From the NCBI GenBank assembly GCA_001632425.1, contig KV425559.1:69281-133280 (forward strand): 64,000 nt of DNA. The letters run 5' to 3'. Position numbers and translations under genes: made by a program. Source of the stretch: Neolentinus lepideus HHB14362 ss-1 (taxonomy: Eukaryota; Basidiomycota; Agaricomycetes; Gloeophyllales; Gloeophyllaceae). Under the pieces are notes generated by a model. It was given only the letters and a program-made list of their open reading frames with translations, ran no database searches and was not told the origin of the DNA. Positions 49,269 through 58,514 of this stretch are shown in pieces; the stretch's first letter is position 1, and each line of letters opens with the position of its first letter.

Positions 49269-50282
49269 GCAGAACGTTGAAGACAGCGACGAGATGGTGC
49301 GGTGGCCGTCCGTCGTCGTCGCAGGAGAATAAGAATAAACGGAAAGAGGTCAGGACGGAATGCGGATGCAAAGTAGAAAAGTCGGCGATTCAAAAATTCG
49401 TTACTATCGTCACCACTGGCTATTTGCGCTTGTCGGAACCAGTGCGAATCACTAATGTTCCCCACAGCGTTGCCCCACACGGCGTCTGTCTCCCTTGTCG
49501 GCGTCGTCTGCTGCGTCGGCGGGCGGTGTTGTCGTGGCTGTTAGCAGTGCCCGTCTGGATCGTCCAGGCTGATAATCGATGGAAAAAAGAAATAATATTC
49601 CGCAGAAGGGTTTACGTGCGGTGGTCACAGCTCAGCAGAGTGGTTGTTTGATGCCAACTCGGCCCAGACCGGCCCAGAATTGTATGTACTTCGGCGGTCC
49701 AGACCGATCGTGCGCCTGTCCTCGGCCCACTCCCTCGGTGCCTTCGGTCGGGCCTCGGTTAGACTCTGTCCCAGCCTTCTTTCAGGACAGGGTACGAGCC
49801 TACTCATTGTTACAGGAACATTACACTCAAGCGGAACATCACACTTAAGCTTTTCGCACATCCGTGATTCAGGAGCGCCGGTATGAGTGAATGCAGACGT
49901 GTACCTACCACCCCAATTGTTGTTCCATTACTGCCCTGGATTAAATGTAACTTCCTGATATCATCAACCTACACCCCATTATTAACTGCCAATCCCCCGC
50001 ATGGCATTGGTACACGCTGCACCGCCTCACTGATATCGGCGTATGCTCCTGCCGCACCCTCGCTGCCGCGGGAAGCATCGCTGATTTGCCCAGCGTCTTC
50101 CTAATCCCGCACCGACTGCCTTCACTGGAATGCTCCGGCTCTCCACACACCCGGAAATCACTGGAAAAGACGCAAGACGCCAAACGCAAGGCAAGCTTGT
50201 TCCGACCGCTACCTTTCTTTGATCCAACCGAAGGAGTCGGATGCAGCGAATCGAATGGTTTCACGTCCACCACGCCTTCTCC
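49269..50282. other. Kinase upstream region and left flank of the helicase/DUF6589 element
   Basis: About 1 kb without a gene. The part near 49269 should be the kinase promoter. The right part ends exactly at the first base of the inverted repeat at 50283. I see no target duplication matching the right flank. Confidence 0.4.
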
Positions 50283-50404
50283 GTAGTCTCGTAACCAGAC
50301 TCTTTATATGATACTTGTGCTACGCACGAAATATATATAAAGAGTCTGGAACCACTGTATCGTGAGCGAATACAGCAACATTTCGAACTCCGGTCATTTC
50401 CTTT
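50283..50404 (+). repeat. Left inverted repeat with internal hairpin
   Basis: Positions 50295-50309 (CCAGACTCTTTATAT) pair perfectly with 50335-50349, forming a 15-bp stem with a 25-nt loop. A smaller stem AGTCT/AGACT uses 50285-50289 and 50297-50301; the two stems overlap in the outer arm and would be alternatives. The inner part 50341-50404 is copied in inverted orientation at 55914-55976. Confidence 0.85.
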
Positions 50405-50532
50405 TCAGGAAGGCGCGCCGCCGCGCTCAGTGAATGTGGCGAAAAGATCTGCCTTGTATCCTCGACAGGGGCTCGTAGACAGATGTGAATAAAATTTCAT
50501 TTGGTTGTACTATACTACGACACTCTCTAATC

Positions 50533-52836
50533 ATGGTGGCTACCTCTCGAGTCCAGAGATACACTGATGAAACCATCAAACTTGAAGATCTCACCGCCCG
50601 AGCAGCCACAATTCTAGGCAAAAGACCATTTCCCTGGCAGTTGGAGGTAGCGGCAGCTGTTCTCAAGGGGGAGGATGTCATCCTGGATGTCGGAACAGGT
50701 AGTGGGAAGACCCTCTGCTTTTGTCTCCCTCTCCTCAAGGACGAGAAAGACATCAGCCTCATAGTCTCCCCTCTGACAGCTCTAATGATCGACCAAGTGA
50801 GCAATAGATACACCAATAGGAAGGACAGAACTCAGCTCTATGATAGACTAAATCAGCCCCAATTCGGACCATTGCCGTATGCAAGGAAACTATGCAGAGC
50901 CTGGGTCCAGAGAAGATATATGAGGTACATTTCCGGACCTAAATGGGTGACATCAACAGGACTTACAGTGCAATCTGCCCAGGTGATTCTTGAAGGCCAG
51001 TTCCGGCAAGTCATTGTTTCACCAGAAATTGCAACAAGCCCGGAATTTCGACATAAAGTCTTGTCGAAGCCTGAGTTCTATAGCAACTTGCGAGTAGTCT
51101 GTATAGACGAAGCACACTGCATCAGTTTATGGGGAGGGAACTTCCGACTAGAGTATGGTACCCTTGGTATGCTGCGAGGTCGGATCCCCGTAAAGGTTCC
51201 ATTCATCGTGGCTTCAGCAACACTCCCCCTGCATATTCTTGCTGACATACGCCAACAACTCCACCTGTCGGACAATGCCCGGACGGTGTCCGTAACAAAT
51301 GCACGCCCTAATGTAGCTCTGTCAGTACGGCCTATGAAGCACTCGGAAGAGTCCAAGGCTGATCTCGCCTTTGTACTGCCTACACATGTGGCTCGCAGCA
51401 GCGACATACCGGTTCAGTTGGTCTATTGCAATACCCGTCTGGCCTGTGAAGATGTTGTTGATAGCATACGGTCCTGGTTACCGACAACAATTCCTCCAGA
51501 ATGCATTGCTTTCTATCACGCAAGGATTGGTGAGAAGCGCAAGAGAGAGATTGAGAGAACATTACTGGAGGGGGAGATTCGGATTGTTGCCTGCACTGAT
51601 GCAGTCGGAATGGTAAGAGCTGCATTGGATTGTATTAGATGAACACAATACTTACAGATATACCAGGGCTGTGACATGCGCAACATTGAGCGTGTCGTGC
51701 TCTGGGGAATGCCACCATCATTCTGTGCCCTCGTACAACGAGCTGGTCAAGCAGCACGTGACATGACACGGCTCGGTGAGGCAGTCCTGATTGTCCCGAA
51801 GAAGACCTTGAGTGGCGGAGTGACCGAGGATGATGTGGTCCATACTGTTGGACAGATCGTGCTTGAAGCCCCATTCACTGGTACTGAAGAAGAGGTGCCT
51901 GAAGGCACAGCACTCGGGGATGGCCGTGAGATAGTCCTTGTGGAGGAGGGTGGCATCCGCGTTGGGCATGCTGTTGAGGAAGACATCGTGAGCCTCGTGA
52001 AAGTAACAAAGGGGAAGGGCAAAGACAAAGATAGTTCAGGCCAGATACATTCCTTAGAGGCCCAAACACTCACCGAATTCATCATAACAAGCAACTGCCG
52101 CCGTAAAGTGTGGGATAAGTTCTTTGGAAATGGAAAAAAACGTGTGTCCATCAATTGATCTTATGTATAGATGTTAACACAGTAGGCGTGGTTAGTCCCC
52201 TTGACCCCAGAAAACACAACATACCGCGTGCATAGAGATGCAAGATGCTGTGACAACTGCGAGCCCGCAAAGTTCCCGATTGAAGAAATTCATGTCGGGA
52301 AGGCTAGTGGTTTGAAAAGAGGCAAGAAACGGGCCCCTGAAGAGGGAATGGAGACTTTCCTACGCAAACGACTATCGCGATGGCGAACAGAGGTCCTCCT
52401 ACCATCCATGTTTGGTGGATCAACCGCACTCATCACTGGTGAGGCCCTTATGGGGGATGACGTGATTGACCAGCTGGCTACCAGTGGGGAACGTCTCATG
52501 ACAGAGAAACAACTCAGGAAATATACACGCTGGATACATGCTTACGAGGATGATGGGCTTTCGTGTGAAGGCACCAAGTTACTTGCTTTCCTGCAAGAGC
52601 TATATTCAACCTATGATGAGGACCCGGCTCTGCAGCGGACGACACTGCACCCAGTCGATCCTGTCCTCTTCTATGCAAACCCAACTGCACAAACCCGAGA
52701 AGGTCCTGGACAGGAAGATGTTAGTAATGGAGAACTTGCTGCACCACCAATGACAAAACGAGGACGTCCCCGTGGCAGACCAAGAGGCTCCCGTGCTGGT
52801 CAGTCTCGCAGTCGCCGAGGCACCAGACAGAGCTAG
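50533..52836 (+). CDS. RecQ-like DNA helicase with zinc-binding end and AT-hook tail
   Basis: Five exons fit exactly (50533-50796, 50847-50924, 50983-51612, 51667-52141, 52196-52836) and give 695 residues. Helicase motifs in order are PFPWQLEVAAAVLKG, DVGTGSGKT (Walker A), SPLTALMIDQ, CIDEAHCISLWG (Walker B), VASATLP, VYCNTRLACEDVVDS, ACTDAVGMGCDMRNI and a degenerate motif VI, QRAGQAARD. The C-terminal part has SNCRRKVWDKFFGN and RCCDNCEP, the cysteine pattern of RecQ zinc domains. The end has KRGRPRGRPRGSR, which looks like an AT-hook. Stop codons in single frames (for example near 52156) fall inside introns. Many agaricomycete genomes carry similar helicases in many copies, as far as I recall. 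It is convergent with the DUF6589 gene. Confidence 0.88.
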
Positions 52837-52853
52837 ATAAATGTACTGACCAG

Positions 52854-55801
52854 TCACGACAAGCCCATAGTGTCGAGTTCACGACACAAACCACTGATAA
52901 GCTCCATCACAGCCTCCTGATCGAGCCCATCCCAATCATCCTCGTCCTCGTCCTCAGGGAGGTCACCTTCACCTATGCTGTCAATCTGGTCTTCATTACT
53001 GCCATCTACCGCCACCCTCTCATCGCTGTCTGCGGCGGCATCCACCTGTGATGCCTCCATGGACTCTGAGTCCAAATGCTCGGATGAAGAGCTATCATTG
53101 GAGACCCCATAGTTTCGCACCTTTGTAGCATCTTGCCGAAATACCTTATATGCACGTGCCGTATTCGAGTATGCCACACCTTCTGCCATGAGGTCACGAC
53201 ATGGGACTGCTGCAGAGTTGCCATTGCGATCTGGTGCATACGACTGAAGCTTCTCTCTCTGGAGATAACCACGGATAGTGTTGATATCATGAGTTGCATC
53301 CGGGCTTGTATGGGTTCGACCATTGTGGGGCGTCTTGTAGTTTGTTTTAACATGGCGTATGACATCTCGTAATGCAAATATTGACATTGTGATCATCCCG
53401 AGCCAGTCCCAGCTCCGGCCAGGGCCTTTTGCTGTGTAGATTATCTATTGGATAGGTGATTAGCACCTCAGCATCTCGTCCTTCACCTCCCGCACATTAC
53501 CTTGGCCCAAAAGTTGTGATGCTCTTGCAGGAGATCAACTTCTTTGAACCCATTCGGCAGTCCAGTGAGATTCACGAGCCAGTTCATCAGGAAGGCCTCA
53601 CTACGTACATGACTTCAGCAGCCCGTCACCACACCAGACATAAGACCACGCACCGCAGTTTCGGATTCATAGATTTCAGATTCATTAAGACCTGAAATAG
53701 CGCATCTGCATACTTCGGCATAGATCCGGTCCCACGAAACATGACCATCCAAAGCGCTAGAATGTTTATGACCATGCCAATGTCCCCGCGCTTGATGGCA
53801 TGTGCAAATATGTGCAGAAGCAGAGCATCCTTATTGAAGTAGATGATGTTCTCAAGAGGAATATCTCGGCGTGGAAGGGCACGCAGCGACAGCACCCGCT
53901 GCGAAGAGAACAGTTCATCACGGACCTTCCGCGCCACAGCACGGATTTCCTGGTAGTTGGGCACTTTCGCAGCCCATTCGTCAAGGTTATCGCTGGGTGA
54001 ATAGATACGAAAGCCATCCAGTGCATGTGCTTTCAGGCTTAGCTTGACAATGAGCTCCCAAGTCGGGCGAAATGGAGTCAGCTTCTTGGCTTTCCAGCCG
54101 ACGGAAATTGGTTTCCTGGCCAGCTGTGTGTTGATCATCCACAGCGACCACGGACATGGGCTGTTAGGACGGCCCCAGTATTCATTTGCAATCATACGGT
54201 CAGCCGCGAGCTTGACATGGAAGAGACCAGGCTGCCCCTCAGTCCAGGCACCAAAGTTATCAAAGAGATCGGAGTCATCTCGCCGGGAAGCACTAGCCTG
54301 CGAAACTCCGGTGTGATGAGCTTTCCAAAGGCAATATTTCATAGAGGCTTACTTTGTCCAGGAGAGATACCGTTAATTGATCTCCAGCACAGATCACGAT
54401 GCCATGGCGCTTGATATCGTCCGTACTCATTTTGAGAGTCTTTCCCATGATGGTCTCCAATACATCAATAGTTCCGTCGAGGCTGGATTCATCAATGTGC
54501 ATTGCTGGTAAGGGATATTGTTCGGTCTTGTGGAGAGGGATGGACATGACCGTCAGAAGCGCCTCGCGTTCCCCACCAAAGCGTGCTTGTAAGGCAGGGT
54601 ACGTCTGAAAGAGGATCTCTTCCAGCTGCCATAGCATCTCCTCCTCGACTTCGAGGACTTGGTCACGGCTAGGGAGTAGATCACGCGGCCTGTACTTGAT
54701 ATGCGGAAGGCGCGTACGGCGAAACTGCTTCAGCTCGAGTGGGAGGTCCCCGAACCCAACACCATACAGAGGGATTAGCGTAGCGGTCGTGCCATTGTCG
54801 AAGTGGTCCTTTGAGTCATGCCGCTGCTCTTCAACACGGAACGCAATGTTGATGTTATCCCAGACAATCATAAAGGCCCGAGAGCGCGCAATCTCCGCCA
54901 CCTTGGCCAGTCGTTCATTCTTAAGCTCTCTGATGTCGCGTATAGCCTTACTGTAAGAGGATGAAAAGCCGGCGTGGTGCAAGACTTCAAAAAGTGATCG
55001 TGTGGCGCCACATGCAAGTAAGTAGATGCAGAGAATGCTCTGCGATACATTAGCGCGTTCGTTCCGAGCTTGCATAAGCATGGAAATGACCGTTGCTAAG
55101 ATCTGCGAAGCTGTAAGGCACAAATTCACACAGGCAGCAGTCGAAACTCATACCAAGTCCGGGTCTCTTCTCTCGGATTTACGCCCTGTGTTAACGCAGA
55201 GTTCCTCGAGTAGGCCGTATAGCGTCGGAGCCAGTTCCTTTGAGTTTTGAAGAACCTGGTCAAGAGACCATGACTCGAGTAGGTCAGTGACGGTTTGCCC
55301 ATCTGGAGGGCGCATATATTGTTCGAGAGCCTTAGCTTCTTTCTGGGTGACTCGCTGGGCAGCATTTTCGGTGTATGTTTGCATAACACTGGCTTTCTTC
55401 TCGTGTAACGTAGCTAAGAACTCGGGCCCGTGGGTGATGAGGAAACGGGAGGTCTGTGATGAAATTTGTTGCTCTGTAGACTCGAACAGTGACATAAGAA
55501 ATGTGTTCAGAGTGAATCCGTCGGCCTGGATGCCTCGAAGAAAGCCTGCAAGCCGCGTGTTGACCTGGTCACGCTCGATCTGTTGAGCGGCTATCAACCT
55601 CTCATTCTCCTCCCTTTGCCTCTCCTTCCGCTCACGAGCCTCCCGAGTGTCCCGTTCTTGTATGAGTCTTTGCTGTTCAAAACGGAGCTGCTCCGAAGTG
55701 AGGTTTAGAGCACGACGGCGACGTTTTGCGGGCTCAGCCAGTGAGTTGATGAACACGTTCTCCTTATTTTCATCTTTACGCCGCTTCGTGGGTGCCATCA
55801 T
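52854..55801 (-). CDS. DUF6589-family protein
   Basis: Five exons fit exactly (55154-55801, 54353-55102, 53654-54297, 53501-53600, 52854-53444) and give 910 residues. The first 100 residues are basic with a coiled coil rich in Glu/Arg. The conserved domain runs over about residues 380-770. It contains MHIDESSLDGTIDVLETIMG, IVICAGDQLTVSLLDK, EGQPGLFHVKLAADRMIANE and LLQEHHNFWAKIIYTAKGPG. The tail is acidic (GEGDLPEDEDEDDWDGL). The acidic residues inside VICAGDQLTV and MHIDESSLDG recall the strands of RNase H-fold transposases, but this is inference. The function of DUF6589 is, to my knowledge, undescribed. The start MMAPTKRRK is the first ATG pair with a coding-like continuation. Confidence 0.85.
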
Positions 55802-55913
55802 CAAGAAAATGAACAAAGTAATGCCTAAGTTAGAACGCGTGTGTACGCGTCGAAGACGCGTCAAGGCGTTCGCGCCACAGATCACGCAAATACATACAAA
55901 ATTAGGACCTTAT

Positions 55914-56101
55914 AAGGAAATGACCGGAGTTCGAAAAGTTGCTGTACTAGCAATGTATCAAGTGCTTCCAGTCTCTACGGCAGCTAAGCCATCCCGCCCA
56001 CCCTCTTTCCTCCGCCGATTCTCCTCCTTCCGCGCTCGTACATAGCATTGCACAACCTCTCATAGACGCGTGCTAGCCGTAGAGACTGGACACGAGTCTA
56101 C
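55914..56101 (-). repeat. Right inverted repeat with internal hairpin
   Basis: Positions 55968-55981 (CCAGTCTCTACGGC) pair perfectly with 56076-56089, giving a 14-bp stem around a 94-nt loop. A small stem AGACT/AGTCT uses 56083-56087 and 56095-56099. The inner part 55914-55976 matches the left inner arm in inverted orientation. Confidence 0.85.
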
Positions 56102-58514
56102 TATATACCCGTCGCTTACGCCATATCCATATGTTTGTCCTCCGCTTTCCCAAACACCAGCGTCGAGGGAACTACCTTCGTTGTACACCAAAGCTTATGC
56201 ACTTCCAACACATGTACAGCCTAGTGCCTGATCACCAGGCACCGAGACCTATTCCCGTGCCTCTACTTCGTGTTCGAGAACGGAAGCTGCGAAATGCACC
56301 GTGCTGTTCATGAGCTGTTAACGCAGGCTGTAGTGGCCCAGCTCCCTGCAACACTCGGTATGCCTTTCGCCATATGGGTCACGCATGTCATATTCCCCTC
56401 GGGGGCCTGCCCGATGCCGAATAAATATCTGATGGCGTTTGATATCGCTACTAAAAGATTCGCAGCGCTGCGGGACAACGTTCAAGATGGGCTCTGTAGA
56501 TGCCCCCATCCAGGTCGTCGATAGTGCGGTTCGTCTTCACGGAACAATACGAACGCGTTGCATCTGCCTGAGGGAATCCGACCTGCTTGAGCAAATAACG
56601 GTCGAGAACAACGACGTCACTGGATGCTTCTAGTGTTATTATACATGTCCCGAAGATATCCTCGGAGAAGCATCGTCTAAACCATATTTTTCACCGCAAA
56701 ATCACCGCTGTGATTTCCGGCCTATGATAAGACCGAAAAATCATGCCACTAGAATGCAGGAGGCAGGCACAGACATAACTGCAGTTCTCTCGAGAAGAGA
56801 CGGTGTGACGCAACGGGAACCTAACGGCTTAAGCACAATCTTTAGATTCTCATTGCAAGGCTGTATCACGGCGATCTGCTGACAGCCGTTCTTACCAGGT
56901 AGATTCTGTGACTCCGCCATCTTCAAGTTGCCTGATGTTACCTTGTACGGAGCCCTAATGGACCCAAACGTCCGAACTCTGGGTGCAGCGCAGTTACGCC
57001 ACCTCCGCACACGTTCATGAGAAACATGAAGACAGGAACTCCGTTATCCGGTTTGATGAGGCTGCTGTGTGTAGTGCATGCACAAACATCGTCAAGTCTT
57101 CCAACCACAAGACTGCATCTTCCAGGTGGCCCTCTAGACTTGGACTATGACTCCTATCATGTGTCAGTGTGAGACTAAGCCCAGGTACAGGTCCATCCCC
57201 GGTGTTATATTCATATACCGTACGGTCCTGGCAGGAGACACTGTTTAGTACAAAATTCAAATGACCTCTCCACCATGGATACATGGGCTTGGATACGGTC
57301 CAAGGTTGGCTGTAAACTGACGTCCGGATCATGATAAACTGCGTTCACAAGCGGTGGGACTCAGGGGCCATCACTGCTCCGAGGCTTACCGCGCTCACAT
57401 GCCTGCATTGAACTCTGGTGACAAAAGCTTACGGTGACTCGGGACTTGCTGCATCTTCCAGGATCACGTCAAGCCCGGGTGCCGATCAAGATGTGCCTAT
57501 GTTCAGTCCGCTTGTGGTCTTTGGGTACTTGTCACCTTGAAGGCCGAGCCGATATAGCTTTTGCTTCCGTTCATACATAGAGGAGCCGCGACTAGTTCTA
57601 CAAATTTGTTATAAGGAGGAACAAGCGACGTCATACCTGCTACGACTCTGAACTCGAACTCTCTGATGCTGGGAAGAAATAACTCTCAAGGGAGCGGAGA
57701 GGTGTCCCGTGTAACCTTGAATTGTTGTAGCTCTATAAATTGCGACAGGTTGAGGCCTGCCCATGTACAGATCGGTCTGTATGTCGGAACCGACAGGCCA
57801 ATTACATGACTACACATTTAGTAAGCTGCTCGTCGCAGACTATCACTGATAAAATGTCCTTGTTGAGAGTCAACTGATGGTTGGATGCCGAGCGATATGG
57901 AGTCGTTGATCCAGCAAATCAGGTACAGGCCATCACCGAAACATTCACTGAAGCTGTGCGCCGTACTTACCGCCGGTATGACATTGCCGCCCACGCAGCT
58001 TTGTGATAGGTCGTATGATGAGAACTACAGGTACGCAGAAACGCTGCCTCAAGATCCACTTGATTGAAGCAAACGTAATATCAATCACTGTTGAGGTAAT
58101 ATGCATTGAGGATGGCGCACCTCGTCCGGACTCGCGCCCAGGTTAGACTTCCAGACAAACTATATATGGGCCCATTTGGAATAGTCTGGCACCGCCCTAG
58201 AATACGGAGATATTTCCGAGGCATGTAGTCGAAGAATCACTTTGCAACATTAGAGTGTCACAGCTGAAGTCATTCTGTAGCAAAGTATCAGGATAAAACC
58301 AAGTAATATCGGCAGCCATATCCGAGTCGAACTCGCGATCGACGGATTGTGGCGCAAGATGGGTACGGAATTGTCCGATTAAGTCCGAACATCACGTGCC
58401 TTGATCGAGTCAAGTCCGGCCAAATTATCCAGTCTATTGCTTGCCATGTCGCATCTGCATCTCCAATTCTTGCTTAATTTACTTGTTCCTCGGTCCATTT
58501 GACAGTCTAAAAGG
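56102..58514. other. 2.4-kb gene-free region with coding-like debris
   Basis: No intact gene is recognised. On the minus strand between about 57330 and 56740 two neighbouring frames read like eroded protein (for example DAVLWLEDLTMFVHALHTA). I cannot assign them to a family. A tRNA-like arm near 58330 was examined and rejected. The right end should hold the promoter of the aspartate kinase gene. Confidence 0.35.

Follow-up and report, generated by a model that had tools for sequence, protein, structure and literature searches.

The locus studied here raises the question of whether two convergent genes enclosed by inverted repeats, one for a RecQ-like helicase and one for a DUF6589 protein, form a mobile element and, if so, of which type. 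It lies in a stretch of 64,000 nucleotides (the window) on contig C9 (631,524 bp) of the 33.8-Mb, 168-contig assembly of Neolentinus lepideus HHB14362 ss-1, a wood-decay basidiomycete (Agaricomycetes, Gloeophyllales). The analysis indicates that the locus is very probably a complete DNA transposon of the cut-and-paste kind, and AcademH, within the Academ superfamily, is the lineage that suits it best. An earlier note had proposed a mobile element pairing the two genes at 50283-56101. The element itself was upheld, since its ends recur with 9-bp duplications and its genes co-occur in other fungi; its span, however, is 50284-56100 (5.8 kb), and the bases 50283 and 56101 belong to the flanks. The inverted repeats around the convergent genes, with 17 bp between the stop codons (52837-52853), and the lesion-free reading of both genes were likewise borne out, the latter as open frames with GT-AG introns under predicted splicing. 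The coordinates of all features are collected in Table 1.

The two terminal inverted repeats agree at 16 of 20 positions. A genome search allowing 3 mismatches or fewer gave 50 matches to the left-end pattern and 9 to its reversed control, many of the 50 being ends of a sister family; for the right-end pattern the figures were 14 and 1, and therefore the ends are not a product of chance. At each end the CCAGWCTC part of the terminal repeat has an extra internal inverted copy, which gives a perfect stem of 15 bp. Further inside lies a 69-nt inverted repeat, far longer than the runner-up in the 8.5-kb region (23-24 nt, 74-78%).

The same ends were also found without the two genes, in short internally deleted copies. 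Among 12 copies of this family (family 1), the 9-bp flanks were identical in five, differed by one mismatch in one and by two in another, and were unmatched in four two-ended copies; the remaining one had no left end. None of 342 wrong flank pairings, used as control, showed fewer than 3 mismatches. This test left aside C57 and C9:210441 (one end lost), C4, C32, C102 and C58 (left end only), C51:81998 and C21:383895 (right end only) and the inner fragment on C45. The duplications that the earlier note had suggested looking for are thus 9 bp long; they are of mixed sequence, and the termini begin with 5'-TA. In the sister family, with ends TAGGCTCGTAACCACCCTC, 9-bp duplications were present in 6/6 copies with both ends found; the scan covered 13 loci, including 11 from this family (6 two-ended and 5, L090-L094, one-ended). 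Altogether, the element moves or has moved.

The 9-bp flanks of the window copy, CCTTCTCCG on the left and CTATATACC on the right, differ from each other. Contig C85 stops 94 bp into an element right end and is flanked by CCTTCTCCG, whereas contig C29 starts 95 bp into a left end and is flanked by CTATATACC. Over these stretches both agree with the window copy at 100% identity, and for the second copy identity is known for these 94 + 95 bp only. Since the flanks cross-match, the element was inserted twice, both times with a perfect 9-bp duplication, and contig C9 connects the left flank of one insertion to the right flank of the other. Both a false assembly join and a real exchange between two copies agree with the data; the former is more likely, because the near-equal overhangs suggest that the assembler halted at the repeat. 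The longest frames across the true joins (127 and 209 amino acids) and the false joins (181 and 197 amino acids) are alike and do not discriminate. As a side observation, the stretches before 50284 and after 56100 may not be adjacent in the real genome.

When the DUF6589 protein was analyzed, its predicted structure had hAT and P transposases as closest structural neighbours and showed a hAT-like fold, that is, RNase H with a helical insertion. A D-D-E triad (D288, D447 and E697) is conserved in an alignment of 72 proteins (four from the first homologue search and 68 of 92 newly listed ones); another alignment, A1, comprised 45 of the 120 proteins listed. The structural model and the triad suggest that DUF6589 is a DDE transposase, which contradicts the earlier statement that neither protein is a known transposase. 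E495, considered as the catalytic glutamate, was rejected because it is not kept in distant DUF6589 subfamilies (4/72). Between the second D and the E, GxFH stands in place of a C/DxxH signature. Nine open splice models exist for this gene, differing in intron 3, and a further ATG lies at 55801; the annotated N. lepideus DUF6589 protein is 99% identical to that of the window over the compared region.

The DUF6589 profile gave chance matches only against PDB sequences (best E 0.074), and neither hAT (Hermes) nor P element sequences matched DUF6589 in the Pfam and PDB-sequence searches. Alignment scans for relatives produced 8 pattern matches in viral contigs and 75 in bacterial or archaeal contigs, none of which was confirmed. 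Against viral models, Foldseek returned a single match below 0.001, a pandoravirus hAT-dimerisation-domain protein (9.2e-4). No fusion to a helicase or XPG nuclease, which could have tied DUF6589 to other Academ elements, was seen among 120 of the 126 longer proteins, all listed ones carrying PF20231 alone.

The spliced helicase contains PF00270 and PF00271 above cut-off, and its best sequence matches among structures are RecQ proteins. Three site choices of the second intron keep its frame open, giving about 730 amino acids; the public model P0121 has 487. In motif VI of the window helicase (near 51750; model P0121) glutamine replaces the first arginine, which is kept in 56 of 58 motif matches, P0121 and P0140 being the exceptions; judged from this substitution, the enzyme is possibly impaired.

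The homologue searches yielded 302 DUF6589 and 195 helicase proteins, of which the best 120 each were listed. Pairing was counted among 119 DUF6589 and 86 helicase entries from these lists, with equal contig size within one species serving as a proxy for the same contig. P0062 (no contig given) and helicases P0207-P0240 (most of them RecQ domains with bacterial or metagenomic labels) were left out. At least 27 of the 86 helicases come from the same species and a contig of exactly equal size as some listed DUF6589 protein; the expectation by chance is 2.7 for the nearest 73 helicases, a rough figure that assumes 40-Mb genomes. The 13 weakest helicases kept (P0194-P0206) shared no contig in this count; they are no clean control, because P0202 (Cerioporus squamosus) was later found with a contig size equal to that of P0266. 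The pair thus occurs on shared contigs in many genera, two of these contigs measuring merely 6.7 and 8.9 kb, and it carries consecutive locus tags in Ephemerocybe angulata (D9611_012205/012206) and twice in Phlegmacium glaucopus. A second DUF6589 copy of N. lepideus, on C132, has 2 stops and faces a decayed helicase encoded on the other strand, the two converging as in the window (L038:3763-7786); its DUF6589 part is 36% identical to that of the window over 104 residues. The decayed helicase was called by reading its motifs and from a DEAD match below threshold (E 0.0012), and the window helicase gave no tblastn match there.

That two host genes came to lie between old repeat insertions by happenstance could be argued from the window copy, which taken alone has no matching duplication. 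This is hardly credible given the cross-matches with C85 and C29, the short derivatives sharing the ends, the occurrence of both genes on one contig in many genera and the predicted transposase fold. Several known groups share single features with the element. Helitrons combine a HUH Rep nuclease with a PIF1-type helicase and have neither inverted-repeat ends nor duplications, and Cryptons use a tyrosine recombinase. Here, Pfam listed no Rep, PIF1 or tyrosine recombinase family for the element's frames, inverted repeats and duplications exist, and the fold is DDE-type. MULE (MuDR) duplications are, like those found here, about 9 bp long, but no MULE family appeared in Pfam at E up to 1 and the C/DxxH signature is absent. 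hAT (Hermes) and P elements make 8-bp duplications and have no helicase; the predicted DUF6589 fold is, like that of hAT transposases, RNase H with a helical insertion, but GxFH replaces the hAT C/DxxH signature.

Two described fungal types carry a helicase, and the earlier view that no known type uses such a pair is not supported. KolobokH, a fungal Kolobok lineage, unites a RecQ helicase with a DDD/E transposase, and the element could be sought there on account of this combination; according to PMC9587614, however, Kolobok elements have 4-bp TTAA duplications, 5'-RR termini and a C/DxxH signature. The mixed 9-bp duplications, the 5'-TA termini, GxFH between the second D and the E, and a RecQ-like helicase encoded by a separate convergent gene rather than downstream of the transposase domain make this origin very unlikely. 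AcademH, by contrast, agrees in every feature compared. According to the discussion of PMC10045372 it has 9- or 10-bp duplications and AcademX, of the same superfamily, 3 or 4, a difference seemingly tied to helicase and nuclease; AcademX, with nuclease instead of helicase, thus differs from the window element. PMC10799480, which covers AcademH in its introduction, results and discussion, describes the group as low-copy in Basidiomycota, Ascomycota and Mucoromycota. The element is filed under AcademH because its inverted-repeat ends (16/20, recurrent), 9-bp duplications, superfamily II helicase (RecQ best), DDD/E transposase (by predicted fold and conserved D-D-E) and fungal host all fit. No difference was seen from AcademH as described in citing papers, by which the fit was judged; Academ membership by descent is inferred. 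A DDE superfamily of its own, made of DUF6589 and RecQ, with a fold akin to hAT and P, outside Academ and with a helicase gained independently, would accord with the nearest structural neighbours. It is improbable, as duplication length, helicase and host range coincide with AcademH as given in citing papers, and its full form, with a GxFH signature, a helicase independent of AcademH and KolobokH, spread through Agaricomycetes and own short palindromic derivatives, is equally doubtful.

For an AcademH element, the DUF6589 protein would, as an RNase-H-fold DDE transposase, bind the terminal and subterminal inverted repeats, excise the element and insert it where the two target strands are cut 9 nt apart, gap repair leaving the 9-bp duplications. 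The RecQ-like helicase would be accessory, probably opening the hairpin-prone ends or aiding junction repair or replication, and short internally deleted copies would be mobilised in trans.

The element type thus appears to be already known, in a little-studied transposon group. DUF6589, with 302 homologues in one search and a function so far unknown, gains a well-supported candidate role as DDE transposase and a recurrent helicase partner. This role may not have been stated before; no paper naming DUF6589 was found in a literature search that did not include the defining AcademH paper, whose alignments may hold such proteins under another name. That paper is reportedly Kojima 2020 (Mob DNA 11:15). 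The methods of PMC8290104 and the references of PMC9970103 cite the AcademH paper, and PMC12210899 names Academ in its background and AcademH in one of its references. With a complete element and two insertions with identical visible ends, recent movement and the role of the helicase become testable. The 9-bp duplications also show how a contig join in a public genome can be recognised as false or rearranged.

Table 1 Features of the element in the window
Feature	Position	Strand	Remarks
Left 9-bp target-site copy CCTTCTCCG	50275..50283		partner at element end on contig C85
Left terminal inverted repeat TAGTCTCGTAACCAGACTCT	50284..50303	+	recurs genome-wide
Left subterminal hairpin, 15-bp perfect stem CCAGACTCTTTATAT	50295..50349	+	z -5.8; 0/200 shuffles as stable
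Inner inverted repeat, 69 nt, 80%	50341..50409 and 55908..55976 (arms)
RecQ-like superfamily II helicase gene	50533..52836	+	2 introns; Walker A GTGSGKT, DEAH box, Helicase_C
Helicase exons	50533-51612; 51658-52141 (or 52143); 52196 (or 52211, or 52186)-52836
DUF6589 gene, predicted DDE transposase	55798..52854	-	4 introns
DUF6589 exons	55798-55154, 55102-54353, 54297-53654, 53612-53501, 53444-52854		first of 9 open models
Right subterminal inverted repeat	55967..56090	-	arms 55967-55981 and 56076-56090 (15/15); z -2.6; 2/200 shuffles as stable
Right terminal inverted repeat TAGACTCGTGTCCAGTCTCT (minus-strand reading)	56081..56100	-	recurs genome-wide
Right 9-bp target-site copy CTATATACC	56101..56109		partner at element end on contig C29

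Neither the helicase nor the DUF6589 protein had a tblastn match in a 2.9-kb copy on C72. The sister-family members L055, L059, L062, L085, L086 and L087 range from 71 to 2121 bp, with near-identical ends and perfect 9-bp duplications, and the 71-bp copy folds into a 32-bp perfect hairpin; no autonomous partner of this family came to light. The left ends L042, L045 and L046 (C4, C32 and C102) have another stem after the terminal repeat and apparently represent a third subfamily. On C4 and C32 both stem arms are changed jointly with pairing kept; on C102 part of the second arm has been lost.
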